Source: Oscillospiraceae bacterium
GTDB lineage: Bacteria; Bacillota; Clostridia; Oscillospirales; Ruminococcaceae
Reading direction: 5' to 3'
DNA length: 64,000 nt
Assembly: GCA_018110825.1 (NCBI GenBank)
Contig: JAGBCL010000100.1
Coordinates: 62,001-126,000, forward strand
Part shown: one piece after another, positions 3,368 through 35,487 of the stretch
Position numbering within the stretch: the first letter of the stretch is position 1
Layout: every line of letters starts with the position of its first letter
Program-made: the position numbers and the translations under genes
The notes under the pieces: model-generated
Told to the model about the DNA's origin: nothing
The model's input: only the letters and a program-made list of their open reading frames with translations
Databases searched by the model: none

Positions 3368-4114
3368 CTACTCTTTTACAGCTTTGACAATAAGGAAATT
3401 CGGTTTTATGTACTCCTTGACAATTGTTGGTAGTTTTTCTATCGCCCACGGCTTTGGTGTCGGCTCAACGATTTCTTTCAGAGTAAGCCCGCTGCTGATG
3501 ATTTCGGTGAGAAGCTGTCCCATAGGGCGGTGATATTTTATAACACCGTCAACAAACCAATTCTTTTCGCGCTTGCCTGCCCTGTTATAATCGGAAAAGG
3601 TATAGGAAACACGCTGACCGTTTTCGTCATAATTAAAGTGGGCGTTGCTTTCGTCGATTGTTGCGGTAATAATGGGGTGTTCCTGTGAGAAAAGGAGTGT
3701 TCCGTTGACGTTAAGCAGGTTACATATATCGGTCATAAGTGCGCCGAAGTCTTTGATATAGTGTAAAGCTAAAGAACTGTACACCAAATCAAACTTTACA
3801 TTAAGCTTACTGATTTCTGTCATACTCATACGGATATACTCGATATTTTCGTGCGTTGCTTCTTTTTGTGCAACTTCAAGCATTTTCTCAGATATGTCAA
3901 GTCCTATAACTTTACACGCTCCGTGCTGTACAAAATCAATGCAATTCTTTCCGCAGCCGCAGCCTAAGTCGAGAACGGTCTTTCCTGTCAGGTCAGGGAG
4001 CATTTCAGCCATTGCAGGCTGCTCCAAAAGGTCATTTAAGCATATATCTTTTGCACGCAATTCCTTATAGCCATTGAAAAAAGTTTCGTTATCGAAAATG
4101 TTCTGATTACTCAT
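3368..4114 (-). CDS. class I SAM-dependent methyltransferase
   Basis: 248 residues. Motif I VLDLGCGCGKN (about residues 47-57) binds S-adenosylmethionine, followed by VIGLDISEKMLE and YSSLALHYIKD, typical of the Methyltransf_11/UbiE-like group. Similar small-molecule methyltransferases are widespread in Firmicutes and the substrate cannot be deduced. A GGAGG site precedes the ATG. Its start lies one base from the end of the Nudix gene, so the two are cotranscribed. Confidence 0.85.
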   Translation of the reverse strand: MSNQNIFDNETFFNGYKELRAKDICLNDLLEQPAMAEMLPDLTGKTVLDLGCGCGKNCIDFVQHGACKVIGLDISEKMLEVAQKEATHENIEYIRMSMTEISKLNVKFDLVYSSLALHYIKDFGALMTDICNLLNVNGTLLFSQEHPIITATIDESNAHFNYDENGQRVSYTFSDYNRAGKREKNWFVDGVIKYHRPMGQLLTEIISSGLTLKEIVEPTPKPWAIEKLPTIVKEYIKPNFLIVKAVKE

Positions 4115-21128: not shown

Positions 21129-21139
21129 ATTGAAAGGAG

Positions 21140-21159
21140 TATGCTGATAATTCAGTGTA
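21140..21159 (+). promoter_or_regulatory. hairpin between Shine-Dalgarno and start codon of the second FecR-like gene
   Basis: AAAGGAG (21133-21139) is followed at once by an 8-bp stem with a 4-nt loop. TATGCTGA (21140-21147) pairs with TCAGTGTA (21152-21159), including two G-U pairs. The likely ATG at 21166 comes 6 nt after. A stop codon in frame (TAA, 21148-21150) rules out a start nearer the Shine-Dalgarno. The same architecture occurs at 26992-27011 and 30982-31001. Confidence 0.5.
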
Positions 21160-21165
21160 ATGATT

Positions 21166-22950
21166 ATGAAAGAATTATTCAAAAATTTCAAAATTCCGAT
21201 TATACTTGGCGGATGTGCACTTTTAGCTGTTATTATAACTGTTATTTTACTTACAGGAGGTTCCTCCTCATCATCATATGGATTGTACATGTCATCTGCA
21301 TACGGAACGGTAAGCGTTACGAATTCAGATAACATGGTTTCTGCAAACTCAGGTGACCAACTTAATGAGGGTGATGTTATTACTGTTGGTGATAACTCTT
21401 CCTGTACGCTTGTATATGAGGGTAACAAGAATTCTGATGATAACTACATTGTAATTGGTGCAAATTCTCAGATTGTAGTAATGAATGATTTCGATGGTAA
21501 AGATGAGGGTGAACTGTTTATCAGAAACGGTACAGTTATTGCAAATTTTGCTGATGATGACCATTCACCTGTTGTACTTCGAACAGTTGACGCATCTATA
21601 ACAACAGAAGACAGCGTCTCAAAGGTTTCATACTACACAAACGAATATATGTCATATACTGACTTATATACATTTATGGGCAACAATCAGGTGCAGCTTT
21701 ATGACGAGCAAGGACATAAAGTCAACAATGCGGAAATGCAGATTGAAAAGAAGTGGGGACGTGTTGTTGCAGAAAGCGGTCCATCATTTGAAGCACTCAA
21801 CCTTGATATTGACCTTAATGAACTTTCTGCTTTCGATTTAAAGGCACTTATTAAAATTGCAAACATTGTCGGAGACAAATTCCCGTATACAGTTGCTGAA
21901 TTAAAGGCTGTATATGATACAAAATCCGATGACAACAGCGGAATTTCAATCGAACAACAACCTGATGCAACAGAGACTGCACCTGTAACAGAACCTGTAA
22001 ATACTCCCGGTGATACTTCCGGAACTATACAGACTGCAGAGCCAATCACTACTACTGTTGCTCCTCCGACTGAAACAACTCTTCCTGGACAAACTACTAC
22101 TGCGGCAAAAACAACTTCTGCTGCAAACACAACTTCTGCTCAGAATACAACAACAAAAACTAACGTATATCACAACGTTACAATTATTATTGACGGTGAG
22201 GAAACAATTCAGGAAGTTCCACATGGCGGAAATGCTGAAAAGCCTGAAGACCCGCATATTGATGGTCTTACATTCATTGGTTGGGATAATTCCTTTGAAA
22301 ATATTACCGAGGACAGAATAATCACAGCTATGTTTGATGAGGCATTCGGAGATGACAATAACATTTTCAATGATAACGACAACAATAATAACAATACCTC
22401 ACTCCCTGTTCACAATGTAACTGTTGTTATCGGCGACAAGTCTACAGTTGTTCAGGTTGTTCACGGTCAATCTGCTAATCTCCCATCTGTACTTAACATT
22501 GAAGGTTACGTATTTATGGGATGGGATAAGGATTATACATCTATTACAGAAGATATGACAATTACTGCAATTCTCAAGCCTAATGTTCACACGGTAACAT
22601 TCATTGTTGAAAACAACACCTTTACTGTTGAAGTTGAACATGGCGGTGATGCGCTTCCTACATATATTCCTGTTTCAGACAGCAACGGAAATATGTTTGT
22701 AGGTTGGGATAAACCGATTACCAATATCACTATGGATACAACAGTTAAGGCGGTATTCAATACAGGTACATACCATACAGTAACTTTCATTATTGATAAT
22801 GAATTCTATACCGTTCACGTTGCTGACGGTGGAACCGCTGAACCTCCGTTCTGGCCTATGACAAACTCACTTGGTGTACCATTCCTTTGCTGGGACAGAA
22901 GCCTCGACAACATTACAAGTGATGTAACAATTACAGCATATTACGGATAA
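21166..22950 (+). CDS. FecR-like domain membrane protein with four InlB/Flg_new-type repeats
   Basis: 594 residues from the ATG at 21166 (an ATG at 21160 would add two). One membrane segment (IPIILGGCALLAVIITVILL) leads to a FecR-like domain (LNEGDVITVGDNSSCTLVYE, IVIGANSQIVVMND, about 60-180). A Thr/Ala/Pro linker follows (TTAAKTTSAANTTSAQNTTT). Then come four beta repeats of about 60 residues, each with HxVT(F/V)I, (V/A)xHGG-like and (G/C)WD...ITxD..(I/V)TA. The repeat WD positions lie near FIGWDNSF, FMGWDKDY, FVGWDKPI and FLCWDRSL. Such Listeria-Bacteroides/InlB B-like repeats occur in surface proteins. Probably cotranscribed with the preceding FecR-like gene; ends at terminator 22957-22984. 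Exact role unknown. Confidence 0.82.
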   Translation: MKELFKNFKIPIILGGCALLAVIITVILLTGGSSSSSYGLYMSSAYGTVSVTNSDNMVSANSGDQLNEGDVITVGDNSSCTLVYEGNKNSDDNYIVIGANSQIVVMNDFDGKDEGELFIRNGTVIANFADDDHSPVVLRTVDASITTEDSVSKVSYYTNEYMSYTDLYTFMGNNQVQLYDEQGHKVNNAEMQIEKKWGRVVAESGPSFEALNLDIDLNELSAFDLKALIKIANIVGDKFPYTVAELKAVYDTKSDDNSGISIEQQPDATETAPVTEPVNTPGDTSGTIQTAEPITTTVAPPTETTLPGQTTTAAKTTSAANTTSAQNTTTKTNVYHNVTIIIDGEETIQEVPHGGNAEKPEDPHIDGLTFIGWDNSFENITEDRIITAMFDEAFGDDNNIFNDNDNNNNNTSLPVHNVTVVIGDKSTVVQVVHGQSANLPSVLNIEGYVFMGWDKDYTSITEDMTITAILKPNVHTVTFIVENNTFTVEVEHGGDALPTYIPVSDSNGNMFVGWDKPITNITMDTTVKAVFNTGTYHTVTFIIDNEFYTVHVADGGTAEPPFWPMTNSLGVPFLCWDRSLDNITSDVTITAYYG

Positions 22951-25676: not shown

Positions 25677-26726
25677 TTATTCGCTTTTCCAGTCGCCTCT
25701 TGCAGTCACGATTTGGTAGCCTATGGCTTCCATTCGCTTTTTCAGGTTTGCAACGCTTTCTGCGGCTTCGTCGCCTGTACTGATTTTGTTGTCGTACAGA
25801 AGATACTTTTCACGGACGTCAAGCGGTGAAAGATTTGGCATTACAACGTTACAGCCTGCGAGGATACCCTTTTCCCTGCCGCTTGTGTGGATTGTACCTA
25901 GTGCAGTTGTTGATGGAAGAAGGACGTTAGGTAGGATAAGTCTGACAAGTCCCAGCATAAGCAGGGTTGTTTCGAGTGTGCCCGCTTTTTCATTTGCAAA
26001 TGGAGTATCGTGGTGAGGAATAAATGGTCCGATACCGACCATGTGAGGCTTGAAATCATGTATGAAAATCAGGTCGTCAGCAAGATTTTCCGTTGTCTGA
26101 TAGGGTGAGCCGACCATAAATCCGCAACCTGTCTGAAATCCGATTTCCTTTAAATCTGCAAGACATTTCTTACGATTTTCAAGGGTGAGATTTTTGGGGT
26201 GAAGCTTGCTGTAATGACAACTGTCGGCGGTTTCGTGACGCAAGAGAAAACGGTTTGCGCCAGCGTCGTAGAATTTCTGATAGCTTTCACGGGGACGCTC
26301 GCCAATTGAAAGTGTCAACGCACAATCAGGATATTTCGTCCTGATTGCGGAAATGATATCGACCATTTTTTCGTCAGTGTAGAATCCGTCCTCGCCGCCC
26401 TGCATTACAAAGGTGCGGAAGCCTAAAGCGTAACCCTGTTCACAGCAGGATAAAATCTGCTCTTTGGTAAGGCGATAACGCTCAGTTTGCTTGGCACTTC
26501 GACGTATTCCGCAATAATAGCAATCGTTCTTGCAGTAGTTGGTGAACTCTACAAGTCCACGGATATACACGTCCTTGCCATAGTGCTGTTCACGGATTTT
26601 ACGTGCTTTTTCAAAAAGGTACTCGTCGGTTTCGGGAGTGTGGTTTTCGATTATTTCGACAAATTCATCCTTGGTAAGGATGAGGTCATGCTCCAACTTG
26701 TCGATAAGGGATTTAATTCTATTCAT
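25677..26726 (-). CDS. hydE: [FeFe] hydrogenase maturase HydE (radical SAM)
   Basis: 349 residues from the ATG at 26726, which has CGGAG 7 nt upstream; an extension of the frame upstream is not conserved. The radical-SAM motif CKNDCYYC lies in EFTNYCKNDCYYCGIRR near residue 62. Further family blocks are VMQGGEDGFYTD, LSIGERPRESYQKF, RHETADSCHYSKLHP and GPFIPHHDTPFA. HydE supplies the dithiomethylamine-related part of the H-cluster. Its start overlaps the end of the TM1266-like gene by 8 nt, indicating coupled translation. Confidence 0.97.
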   Translation of the reverse strand: MNRIKSLIDKLEHDLILTKDEFVEIIENHTPETDEYLFEKARKIREQHYGKDVYIRGLVEFTNYCKNDCYYCGIRRSAKQTERYRLTKEQILSCCEQGYALGFRTFVMQGGEDGFYTDEKMVDIISAIRTKYPDCALTLSIGERPRESYQKFYDAGANRFLLRHETADSCHYSKLHPKNLTLENRKKCLADLKEIGFQTGCGFMVGSPYQTTENLADDLIFIHDFKPHMVGIGPFIPHHDTPFANEKAGTLETTLLMLGLVRLILPNVLLPSTTALGTIHTSGREKGILAGCNVVMPNLSPLDVREKYLLYDNKISTGDEAAESVANLKKRMEAIGYQIVTARGDWKSE

Positions 26727-26982
26727 TGGTTTTCTCCGATAATTTGGAATAAATGGTTTTGGTGGAAATTCCGTTAAGCATACCGAGTTTGCCTGACAGT
26801 GCACTTATAACATTTGCAGGTGCGTCGATTGCAACACTGATGATTGAAACATCTCTTTCACGGTACGGGATACCCATTCTGCCGATTATGTAGTTGCTGT
26901 ACTGGTGGAGAACATTGTTGAGCTGTTCAACCGACTCGGTATTCTCCACGACAATTCCGATGAGTGCTACTCTTGTGTCCAT
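26719..26982 (-). CDS. TM1266 family hydrogenase-associated regulator (NikR/ACT-like)
   Basis: 87 residues from the ATG at 26982. DTRVALIGIVVEN, QYSNYIIGRMGIPYRERDVSIISVA and GKLGMLNGISTKTIYSK are typical of the TM1266-type 'iron-only hydrogenase system regulator' proteins, small alpha/beta domains found beside HydE/F/G. Their ligand and mode of action are unknown. The Shine-Dalgarno AAGGAGG lies 30 nt upstream with an 8-bp hairpin between. An alternative TTG start (27003) has better linear spacing but lies in the hairpin loop and would add 7 residues not usual in the family. First gene of the hydE-G-F operon. Confidence 0.82.
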   Translation of the reverse strand: MDTRVALIGIVVENTESVEQLNNVLHQYSNYIIGRMGIPYRERDVSIISVAIDAPANVISALSGKLGMLNGISTKTIYSKLSEKTNE

Positions 26983-26991
26983 AAATTTGAT

Positions 26992-27011
26992 TACGCTTCG
27001 CAAGAAGCGTA
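26992..27011 (-). promoter_or_regulatory. hairpin between Shine-Dalgarno and start of the hyd operon
   Basis: Minus strand: GGAGG (27017-27013), one A, stem TACGCTTC / GAAGCGTA with loop TTGC (27011-26992), nine nt (ATCAAATTT), ATG at 26982. The geometry (1 + 20 + 9 nt) is identical to that at the PBP gene (30982-31001). Confidence 0.6.
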
Positions 27012-27261
27012 TCCTCCTTTTTCGATGTTTTGTGGTTTTCGTCAGAAAATTTCGAACTTTAGTTCGAAAAACAAAACTCGGGTCTGAAAATTTATTTTCA
27101 GACTTCCTCCTCAAATAAATAAACCTGCCGACAGTTCTGCCGACAGGTACAATAATAGCGTGATATTCTATCGTTGCCTTTCCCCTCAGAAAAATCTTCG
27201 GGCGTCAGAACAGGAATTTATATTATAGGTTGTTCACGGTCAGGCACACCTTTCCGATTAC
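27012..27261 (-). promoter_or_regulatory. long structured 5' leader of the hydrogenase-maturation operon
   Basis: The promoter at 27268-27296 predicts a transcript start near 27261, so about 260-280 nt precede the first gene; this is the only gene-free stretch of about 300 bases in the window. In order on the minus strand it holds: an unassigned segment of about 110 nt; a terminator-like hairpin with U-rich tail (27146-27123); a GAGGAGG followed by a 9-bp hairpin (27112-27082); a second hairpin TTCGAAC / GTTCGAA around 27070-27050; and the final Shine-Dalgarno. I match none of this to a riboswitch class I know. Confidence 0.55.
27123..27146 (-). terminator. terminator-like hairpin inside the hyd leader (candidate attenuator)
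   Basis: On the minus strand CCTGTCGGCAG and CTGTCGGCAGG can pair over 10-11 positions with two G-U pairs around a tiny loop, followed by TTATTTATTT. It stands between the promoter and the coding region, so it could control read-through. Confidence 0.5.
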
Positions 27262-28770: not shown

Positions 28771-30972
28771 TTAATCTTCGTTAGTCTTTTTCTTTTCTTC
28801 TTCCTTGTCGGACTTATGAACACCCGAACACATTTCAGGAATGTTACTCTTCCTATAATAACCTACTGTACCTGTAGGACATTTTGCACTTGCAAGCTTA
28901 CCTGTTTTTGTACAGTAATAATATTCAAGAACGTCAGGACATTCAGGGAATTCCTTACCCTCTTCGGCTTCTGCAATTTCACCGAATACGTTCTTCCATA
29001 CCTGTGCAGAACTATAATATGTTCCTGTAGGAATCTGCTTTGGTGTTTCATAGCCGTACCAGACACCGCTTACATAGTCAGGTGTACAACCTACAAAGGA
29101 AAGGTCGTGCCAATCCTGAGATGTACCCGTTTTACCAACAAGCGGTGTATTCTGAAGCCTTGCAGCTCTACCGGTACCGTTAGGGCCTTCGATAACGGTC
29201 TGCATAAGCTTATTCATAATATACGCTGTATCCTCACTGATTGCCTGGATTGGTGTATATTTGTGCTGAATAACAATCTGACCGTTTGCATCAACAACCT
29301 TGGTAAAGGAAGTTGGCTTGTAATATTTACCGCCGTTGCCGAACACCTGATATGAAGCAACAAGCTCTTTAAGGGTAAGACCTTTTGTAAGTGCACCTAC
29401 TGAAAGAGGAGCAATATTTGCGTCATCAGCTACAAGAGTTGTAATCTGGAATCGATTCTGCAGAAACTCAAAAACTTCCTGCGGAGTTTCCTGCTCAATA
29501 AGCTGGGCAGGTATTGTATTGAGAGAACGCTGGAGAGCCTGGAAAGTAAAATATCCGCCGTAGTCCCACGATTTGGAGTTATAGTTGTAAGGCCACTTTC
29601 TTGGGTTGCCTTCATCGTCAAGAATTTCATCTTCAAGCGGTTTATTGATAAATACTGTTGACCAATGGAAAAAGTCGTGTTCAAGTCCGTATGCATAAGA
29701 AGTAATTGGCTTGATACAAGAACCTGGTGAACGTTTAGAGTGGGTAGCATTATTCCACGACATGGATTCAGCCTTTTCACCGATACGTCCGACTACTGCC
29801 TTGATATTTCCTGTGTAATCCATAACTATAAACGCAGACTGAGGCGGGTCATTGAGAACCGTTTCGGAGAATGTTGTATAGTCCTTATACTTCTCTTCAA
29901 TTGCATTCTGCATTTCTATATCAATGGTTGTATAAATCTCATAACCGCCATTGTAAAGCTTGTCACTTGCTTCCTGATATTCGATACCGTACATTTCCTG
30001 GAATTCAGATATAACATCATTGATAACCATATCTACAAACCAGTTCTGGATACCGTTGGTCTCTTCTTCACCTTCTGCTTTTGCATTAGGGTCTCTGAAA
30101 ACTACCTCTTCGGCAATTGCTTCTTCATACTGACGCTGAGAAATACAAGCATTCTTGTACATAAGCCAAAGAACTGTTTTCTGACGTTCGAGGTTGCCTT
30201 CCGGGTCCGCAAAAGGGTTAAGTGTTTCAGGAGATTTCGGAATAGCGGCAAGACATGCACCTTCGGCAATTGTCAGTTCGGATACGTCCTTACCAAAATA
30301 TTTCATTGAAGCTGCCTGAATACCTGCGGCACTTCCGCCGAATCCGATATAGTTAAGATACGCTTCAAGAATGTCAGTTTTGGTACAATATTTTTCAAGC
30401 TGTGCGGAACGGAAAATTTCACGCATTTTTCTATCCCAGTCGGGATTATCATCACCTGTTACGTTACGGACAAGCTGCTGTGTGATTGTTGAACCACCCT
30501 GACGGGAACCAAGAAAGCTTAAAAATTCGTTAAGAAACGCTGTAAATGTACGTTTCCAGTCTACGCCTGCGTGTTCATAAAAACGCTCGTCTTCTGTATA
30601 AACGAAAGCGTCCTGAACGTGCTGAGGAATTCTGTCGATGGAAACAGGAATTCTGTCGGCATTACGGCTGATACTTGCAAGTTCAATAACCGCACCGTTT
30701 TCGTCGTATCCGTAAATGAAGGTTGTATAATCAAGGTCTAAGTCAGAAAGTGAAATATCCACTTGTTCCTGGTCTACAAACTGGAGAACGTAAACGGTAA
30801 GGGCTGCAGCAATAATTGAGCCTGTAATAACAACAATCAGCACAAGAGACAGAATTGTTGTTCCGATTACAGCTAAAGTACGCTTAATAGGATTTACTTT
30901 TCTTTTTTTACGTTTTTTCTTTTCCGGCTGCTCTGCAAAACGCTCACCTGAAGTATTTTCCTTTTTTGCCAT
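28771..30972 (-). CDS. class A penicillin-binding protein (PBP1A-type)
   Basis: 733 residues. A basic cytoplasmic tail (KKKRKKRKVNPIKR) and one membrane segment (TLAVIGTTILSLVLIVVITG) precede the GT51 glycosyltransferase domain with EDERFYEHAGVDW (catalytic Glu) and GGSTITQQLVRN. The transpeptidase domain has SPGSCIKP (SxxK with a Cys where Thr is usual), SLNT (SxN) and VGKTGTS. The C-terminus has Cys-rich and Lys/Glu-rich tails. It polymerises and cross-links peptidoglycan outside the membrane. The start is ATG 30972 or, four codons earlier, 30984. Either way the GAGGAGG is separated from it by a hairpin, and a stop codon in frame excludes an earlier start. Confidence 0.95.
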   Translation of the reverse strand: MAKKENTSGERFAEQPEKKKRKKRKVNPIKRTLAVIGTTILSLVLIVVITGSIIAAALTVYVLQFVDQEQVDISLSDLDLDYTTFIYGYDENGAVIELASISRNADRIPVSIDRIPQHVQDAFVYTEDERFYEHAGVDWKRTFTAFLNEFLSFLGSRQGGSTITQQLVRNVTGDDNPDWDRKMREIFRSAQLEKYCTKTDILEAYLNYIGFGGSAAGIQAASMKYFGKDVSELTIAEGACLAAIPKSPETLNPFADPEGNLERQKTVLWLMYKNACISQRQYEEAIAEEVVFRDPNAKAEGEEETNGIQNWFVDMVINDVISEFQEMYGIEYQEASDKLYNGGYEIYTTIDIEMQNAIEEKYKDYTTFSETVLNDPPQSAFIVMDYTGNIKAVVGRIGEKAESMSWNNATHSKRSPGSCIKPITSYAYGLEHDFFHWSTVFINKPLEDEILDDEGNPRKWPYNYNSKSWDYGGYFTFQALQRSLNTIPAQLIEQETPQEVFEFLQNRFQITTLVADDANIAPLSVGALTKGLTLKELVASYQVFGNGGKYYKPTSFTKVVDANGQIVIQHKYTPIQAISEDTAYIMNKLMQTVIEGPNGTGRAARLQNTPLVGKTGTSQDWHDLSFVGCTPDYVSGVWYGYETPKQIPTGTYYSSAQVWKNVFGEIAEAEEGKEFPECPDVLEYYYCTKTGKLASAKCPTGTVGYYRKSNIPEMCSGVHKSDKEEEKKKTNED

Positions 30973-30981
30973 GATTATGAT

Positions 30982-31001
30982 CATGCTTCAGTGGAAGCAT
31001 G
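30982..31001 (-). promoter_or_regulatory. hairpin between Shine-Dalgarno and start of the PBP gene
   Basis: Minus strand: GGAGG (31007-31003), one A, stem CATGCTTC / GAAGCATG with loop CACT (31001-30982), nine nt (ATCATAATC), ATG at 30972. Two stem positions differ from the hyd-operon copy but remain paired (T-A to C-G and C-G to T-A). Confidence 0.6.
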
Positions 31002-31048
31002 TCCTCCTCTCTGATGGTTTCAAATAGGCAAGTATATTTTATACATGA

Positions 31049-35375: not shown

Positions 35376-35487
35376 ACGGGAATATGCTGAATACGCTTCC
35401 GCTGAAGCTCCCCTACGGGTATCGCTTATTCAGCTGCATACCACTTCCGCCGCATAAACTGATATTTCCCGTTAATTCAGTTTATGC
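35376..35487. repeat. dense palindromic region of unknown nature
   Basis: Several competing inverted repeats: GCTGAATA (35386) / TATTCAGC (35427), GCATAAACTGA (35452) / TCAGTTTATGC (35477), ACGGGAATAT (35376) / ATATTTCCCGT (35462), and an internal GCTTC / GAAGC mini-hairpin (35395-35408). No ORF fits. It may be a small structured RNA, a 3'-end processing structure or a palindromic element. Confidence 0.5.

Follow-up and report, generated by a model that had tools for sequence, protein, structure and literature searches.

The hairpin that separates the Shine-Dalgarno (SD) sequence from the start codon of a penicillin-binding protein (PBP) gene, in the 64,000-nt stretch of Oscillospiraceae DNA analysed here (the window), is read, with a probability of roughly three in four, as one copy of a family of inserted structured leaders; the hairpin, termed B, would loop out the gap between SD and ATG. 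This reading was drawn from comparison of sequences. On the minus strand, the order GGAGG, A, CATGCTTC, CACT, GAAGCATG, ATCATAATC, ATG is present just as a first-pass annotation of the same DNA had described it, and the linear gap of 30 nt from GGAGG to ATG was confirmed (Table 1). It had also been held that an in-frame stop codon excludes any start closer to the SD. This stood for starts 5′ of the hairpin, which are ruled out by an in-frame TGA within the hairpin itself. It did not stand for the ATG with which the stem ends (30984-30982), since this codon shares the reading frame and no stop intervenes (MIIIMAKKE...). The start of the hyd operon (27018-26980, minus strand) has the same 1 + 20 + 9 nt layout, as claimed, and its stem differs from that of PBP at two positions with the pairing kept.

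Table 1. Features of the PBP and hyd leaders and a further candidate start in the window
Feature	Coordinates	Strand	Basis
hyd inserted element, 119 nt	26985..27103	-	filled/empty alignment; absent at the site in sisters G017 and G004
SD1 GAGGAGGAA, ancestral Shine-Dalgarno 5′ of the hyd insert	27104..27112	-	reading, alignment
P1 hairpin GTCTGAAAA/TAAA/TTTTCAGAC of hyd module A	27082..27103	-	copy comparison, fold, covariation
P2 stem enclosing P3 and P4 (three-way junction), hyd module A	27023..27080	-	copies, fold, covariation
SD2 AAAGGAGG, brought by the hyd element	27013..27020	-	sequence reading
hyd hairpin B: TACGCTTC / TTGC / GAAGCGTA	26992..27011	-	reading; R3 E=3.1e-7
First gene after the hyd element, for a TM1266-like putative iron-only hydrogenase regulator	26722..26982	-	Pfam PF21699 1.8e-33
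Class A penicillin-binding protein (PBP) gene	28771..30972	-	Pfam Transgly 4.8e-55, Transpeptidase 1.1e-16
PBP gene start codon ATG	30972-30970	-	sequence reading
PBP Shine-Dalgarno GGAGG	31003..31007	-	read directly
PBP hairpin B: CATGCTTC / CACT / GAAGCATG	30982..31001	-	reading, R3, ortholog covariation
PBP hairpin B, arms	5′ arm 31001-30994, 3′ arm 30989-30982	-	
PBP spacer ATCATAATC, 9 nt, stem to start codon	30973..30981	-	length as in 59/82 B copies
Possible degenerate third B-type start, AAAGGAG TATGCTGA TAAT TCAGTGTA ATGATT ATG	21129..21168	+	R3 E=0.013, R2 E=0.18

Within the window, the 26-nt PBP pattern occurs once when up to three mismatches are allowed, and in none of 100 shuffles. 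A perfect stem of at least 8 bp is found within 4 nt after GGAGG at 3 of the 56 GGAGG sites, namely those of PBP, hyd SD2 and hyd SD1; from the background rate of such stems (160 in 127,920 positions), about 0.07 would be expected at 56 sites. When a 48-nt piece of the PBP leader was folded alone, another structure was preferred, in which GGAGG is paired with CUUCC (-13.4 kcal/mol, z -1.69), and in a context of 131 nt hairpin B forms with a z-score of only -1.01. Hence, fold energy alone is weak evidence at PBP.

Orthologs of the PBP gene were read in 20 genomes of the genus, the one in G009 not being found. By eye, the leader hairpin is clear in six of the 20 (G000, G017, G004, G003, G013 and G019) and weak in two (G014 and G005), and the remaining 12 have a plain SD-ATG leader; the stem of G004 is shortened by loss of its top pairs. 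One stem pair is T-A in G000, T.G in G017 and C-G in G004. A model of B (R3) was built from 34 copies, none of them from this genome, although its rows had been located with a model (R2) that had itself included PBP and hyd. On the window R3 gave 46.4 bits for PBP (E 9.6e-9) and 39.7 bits for hyd (E 3.1e-7). It recovered 3 of the 20 PBP orthologs at E < 1e-4 (G000, G004 and G017), scored G019 and G013 at E 0.14 and 0.19, and missed the hairpin seen by eye in G003. Both conservation and covariation were therefore found at the PBP orthologs, where the first-pass annotation had proposed to look for them. It is covariation, not fold energy, that carries the case for the PBP hairpin, which is real and not a product of chance. 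The PBP SD can also pair with the CUUCC of the 5′ arm of the stem (30990-31014, minus strand), giving an SD-closed fold that competes with B.

The family to which the hairpin belongs has a uniform layout: an SD, 0-4 nt, a stem of 8-9 bp, a loop of 3-4 nt, usually 9 nt, and ATG. In 26 hand-picked copies 97.6% of the stem cells are paired, compared with 77.9 ± 1.6% after shuffling and at most 55.1% when the alignment is slid, and both sides have changed at 8/8 pairs. An alignment of 81 distinct copies, fitted to the model, gave 97.3% paired cells versus 78.9% when shuffled, again with all eight pairs changed on both sides. The distance from stem end to ATG in 82 copies is 9 nt in 59, 8 nt in 8, 10 nt in 7, 7 nt in 5 and 12 nt in 1, two copies having no simple stem. 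Module A, the upstream part of the element described below, precedes B in 60 of these copies, and an ORF of at least 50 aa begins at the modelled ATG in 74, in a set that is biased towards starts because the R2 model itself includes SD and ATG. The suggestion that there is a bacterial family of such starts common to unrelated genes is thus supported by covariation and by the nearly fixed spacing from stem to ATG.

In the 71 of 81 distinct copies for which the distance from AGGAG to ATG was measured, it is 25-35 nt in linear sequence (median 32) and 9-16 nt (median 11) with the hairpin removed. The gap is too long when the stem is counted and near normal when the stem is looped out, and a stable stem lies wholly between SD and start codon, as in an accommodated ribosome-binding site; from this spacing we infer the looping-out. 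It could also be supposed that translation really begins with the ATG or GTG that ends the 3′ arm of the stem; the hairpin would then do no more than cover this codon, and the downstream ATG would be internal. The stem does end in an in-frame, open start codon in 45 of the 71 copies, and since the codon is in frame and open an alternative start is possible there. In 20, however, the last stem codon is no start codon (although in some an ATG spans the end of the stem, as CAT followed by G), in five it is out of frame and in one it is blocked by a stop; the corresponding codon at hyd is GTA. The foot codon lies, moreover, about 20 nt from the SD and is base-paired, and in sisters with an empty site the downstream ATG has an SD at normal spacing. 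Initiation at the stem foot in place of the downstream ATG is hence regarded as unlikely, and a second start at this codon as possible.

Hairpin B is usually the 3′ end of an element of about 120 nt, the anatomy of which was derived by reading the copies side by side, including the SD1 that lies 5′ of P1. The full element consists of P1 and P2, the latter enclosing P3 and P4 (together module A), followed by its own SD2, B and about 9 nt. The fold obtained for the hyd leader (-44 kcal/mol, z -3.5) matches this structure. Among 76 distinct A copies, likewise aligned by fitting to their model, 96.4% of the cells are paired versus 83.7% in shuffled alignments, and 26 of 30 pairs have changed on both sides. 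Module A offers a less start-biased test of position than the R2 set, its model (R1) including SD columns 5′ of P1 with little weight. In 54 of the 76 copies an SD core falls within the opening 16 nt of the R1 match, ahead of P1, compared with 6-15 of 76 in seven control windows further upstream. An ORF of at least 50 aa that is preceded by an SD core begins no more than 62 nt downstream of A in 67 of 75 copies; at seven shifted positions the same was found for 5-31 of 60-76.

Hairpin B is not obligatory. Nine A copies (L038, L051, L053, L155, L214, L215, L218, L231 and L233) have SD2 and a start codon without B, the frame of L051 being only 46 aa long. The SD2 core lies 7-13 nt from the start codon in these copies, and L214, which reads GGAGGAAGTCATATTTATG, comes near to a B-bearing leader minus its hairpin. 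All nine fit the looping-out of B, since the extra distance between SD and start is missing where B is missing. Four other A copies (L216, L217, L219 and L232) have no usual SD2, B or gene start behind them; they are divergent, and at least two of them appear, by eye, to lie directly after stop codons. In L216 module A is followed by a B-like hairpin, and in L232 by a second, reduced A copy. In a further group (L220, L223, L224, L226, L228, L229 and L230) A is, by eye, decayed and B is kept.

Empty sites at three genes (hyd, gltD and metG) show that the element was inserted between SD and ATG. Within the genus, filled leaders were found at 2 of 20 hyd regulator genes, at 2 of the 19 gltD genes whose leaders were read (one more was not located) and at 1 of 18 metG genes. 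At hyd, the empty site of G017 reads GGAGGAA-AT-ATG and the filled site of G000 GGAGGAA-(119 nt)-TT-ATG, and the flanks on the two sides are identical at 94 of 98 and 114 of 122 positions. The hyd copy of G001 shares 80% identity with that of G000 but 90% with a copy that G003 carries at a different gene, and the hyd sites of the closer sisters G017 and G004 lack the insert; hence, independent insertions at this gene are the simplest reading. As an alternative to a bridged SD, the first-pass annotation had considered a small palindromic element inserted at ribosome-binding sites, and the empty sites bear this out. Because an inserted palindrome and a looped-out SD are compatible, the two ideas merge. 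The gltD insert comes after AAGGAAGT, part of the end of the upstream gene, and a TGA within its P1 (L254/L255) appears, by eye, to serve as the new stop of that gene.

It is proposed that the full element inserts into the few bases between the SD and the start codon of a host gene. The original SD1 would then lie over 100 nt away from the ATG, and SD2 would take over. SD2 is itself about 30 nt from the ATG because B lies between; the folded hairpin would take out about 20 nt, leaving some 10 nt between SD2 and the ATG, or fewer where the stem is extended at its base by GA/TC or GAC/GTC pairs. Since the folding of B would shorten the gap, the gene would presumably still be translated. Old copies in which A decays and B is kept would be expected if loss of the fold left the SD too far from the start. 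The PBP leader is most likely either a B-only remnant of the element or a direct insertion of B, and in such B-only leaders the SD of the host would serve the downstream ATG through the looped-out hairpin. Ahead of the PBP SD, GAAACCATC may be a remnant of the tail of module A.

In phage T4, a hairpin between SD and AUG shortens the gap from 22 to 5 nt in gene 38 and from 27 to 11 nt in gene 25 and raises initiation (PMC3014915). The 'split' or 'accommodated' ribosome-binding sites of the two T4 genes are alike to the present leaders, where an AGGAG-ATG distance of 25-35 nt becomes 9-16 nt. Those are single phage genes, whereas here a multi-copy inserted family stands ahead of unrelated bacterial genes, and the function that was demonstrated there is proposed here. 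To our knowledge, looped-out SD spacing has been known from these two T4 genes, and, although looped-out SDs and small interspersed repeats are both familiar, their combination between SD and ATG appears undescribed. A literature search with most subscription journals and preprints outside its coverage returned no description of such an element. The odds are about even that a new class of mobile element is at hand, one directed genome-wide at the interval from SD to start codon and equipped with a replacement ribosome-binding site that folds by itself; it could thereby interrupt a translation signal and still not silence the gene, and initiation in this lineage would routinely proceed across a hairpin between SD and AUG.

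If the looping is true, it would be a recurring property here, represented by dozens of natural variants and by compensatory stem changes. The B-less copies, together with the matched filled and empty sites of sister species, form a ready-made test set for the question of how much structure the 30S subunit tolerates between SD and AUG, and they also bear on how repeats come to occupy translation signals. Starts of this kind could be misjudged by gene finders and by start-site models built on a spacing of 5-10 nt.

The own genome was searched both by palindrome and by the SD-hairpin-ATG layout, and further copies were found before a GltD-like oxidoreductase, an ABC-2 transporter, a TadZ/CpaE-like ATPase and a gene without a Pfam match. 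A palindrome at 35395-35408 was considered as a copy of the hyd hairpin and rejected, as it is not at a start. With the hyd leader as a DNA query, 19 of 61 genomes were matched at E <= 0.01, 17 of the 21 in the own genus and, weakly, 2 of the 40 others. R1 detected module A in 18 of the 21 genus genomes at E <= 0.01, with up to 33 matches per genome, and R2 detected B in all 21 at a lenient E <= 1, with up to 70 matches per genome, scoring being limited to 150 candidates in each genome. Beyond the genus, stricter filters were used, and R2 was positive at E <= 1e-4 in 3 of 294 other genomes of the order, all three from a single genus of the same family. The scan of related genomes that had been suggested thus yielded copies in the own genus and in one further genus, and the carriers, as searched, are one genus and another of the same family, Oscillospiraceae-like gut bacteria. 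The same element is present as L191 in G171, one of these three genomes, and as L042 in G006 of the own genus, and because of this, transfer or contamination of a metagenome-assembled genome (MAG) is possible.

Across copies, the downstream genes include those for the hydrogenase regulator, PBP, a GltD-like oxidoreductase and methionyl-tRNA synthetase, and further for an ABC-2 transporter, a TadZ/CpaE-like ATPase and a HAD hydrolase. This variety bears on the idea that A and B form a regulatory leader, riboswitch-like or protein-binding, in which B opens and closes to switch initiation. A multi-stem structure that covaries, is strongly conserved and stands directly ahead of starts would suit such a role, as would the pyrimidine-rich 5′ arm of B that can pair with the SD at PBP. 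Yet the downstream genes are functionally unrelated, presence at a given gene differs among sister species, and up to 33 A and 70 B matches (E <= 1) per genome are many for one switch. Nor was there a match in Rfam: the scan of the window at gathering thresholds returned only a tRNA, and a permissive scan of eight loci only five matches, all below the gathering score. With nothing relevant in these scans, a known RNA family was rejected. A regulatory leader is accordingly considered improbable. The temperature- or protein-controlled switch that had been put forward in the first-pass annotation is not supported either, the genes being unrelated and none of the results pointing to a response to a ligand, a protein or temperature.

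The element shares with MITEs its short length, its multiple copies and its variable presence at orthologous sites. Unlike MITEs, it has no clear terminal inverted repeats, since P1 and B are each palindromes and not, by eye, inverted copies of one another, and no target-site duplication was seen at the hyd, metG and gltD junctions; it also brings its own SD. SD2 as a target-site duplication of SD1 was rejected, as the two differ within copies (at gltD, AAGGAA versus GAGAGGAGG). In the passages cited, BOX, RUP, Correia/NEMIS and ERIC repeats are described as about 100-200 bp long, with stable RNA structure, multi-copy and present or absent among relatives, and BOX and RUP as over-represented between convergent genes (PMC2229807, PMC3049150). 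In size, RNA structure, copy number and variable presence these repeats correspond to the element, whereas those passages name no placement between SD and start, which is where the present element lies.

In REP elements a GGAG or GTAG tetranucleotide precedes the hairpin. A GGAG-like tetranucleotide likewise lies beside B, and the stems of B are near-perfect DNA palindromes in which G.U pairs are rare (18 of 604 pairs). Both properties would suit a role of B in DNA, as a transcription-factor operator or a REP/IS200-like end hairpin, with the position at starts as a by-product. Against it, B is tied to start codons, with 0-4 nt separating it from the SD and, in most copies, 9 nt separating it from the ATG, and the sequence of the stem is too variable for one operator. 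The Y1 transposase (PF01797) was found in 4 of the 21 genus genomes and not in the other 17, some of which are incomplete assemblies; it was not found in G000, G002 and G003, the genomes with the most A matches, and a REP/RAYT origin was rejected on this ground. A purely DNA-level palindrome is thus given little credence, and a DNA-level role in moving the element may exist alongside the RNA role. An accidental palindrome in a single leader, for which the weak fold z-score at PBP might speak, can be set aside in view of the leave-out model (E=9.6e-9) and of the covariation both family-wide and among orthologs.

Three exact-pattern scans of a viral collection gave one match, and the IMG/VR contig IMGVR_UViG_3300013414_001150 (L296) carries module A at 2255-2404 and at 3606-3730, before phage genes. 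From its ORFs the contig reads as a Mu-like phage, and phages may be a vehicle for the element. Hairpin B is present in one of the two A copies of this contig.
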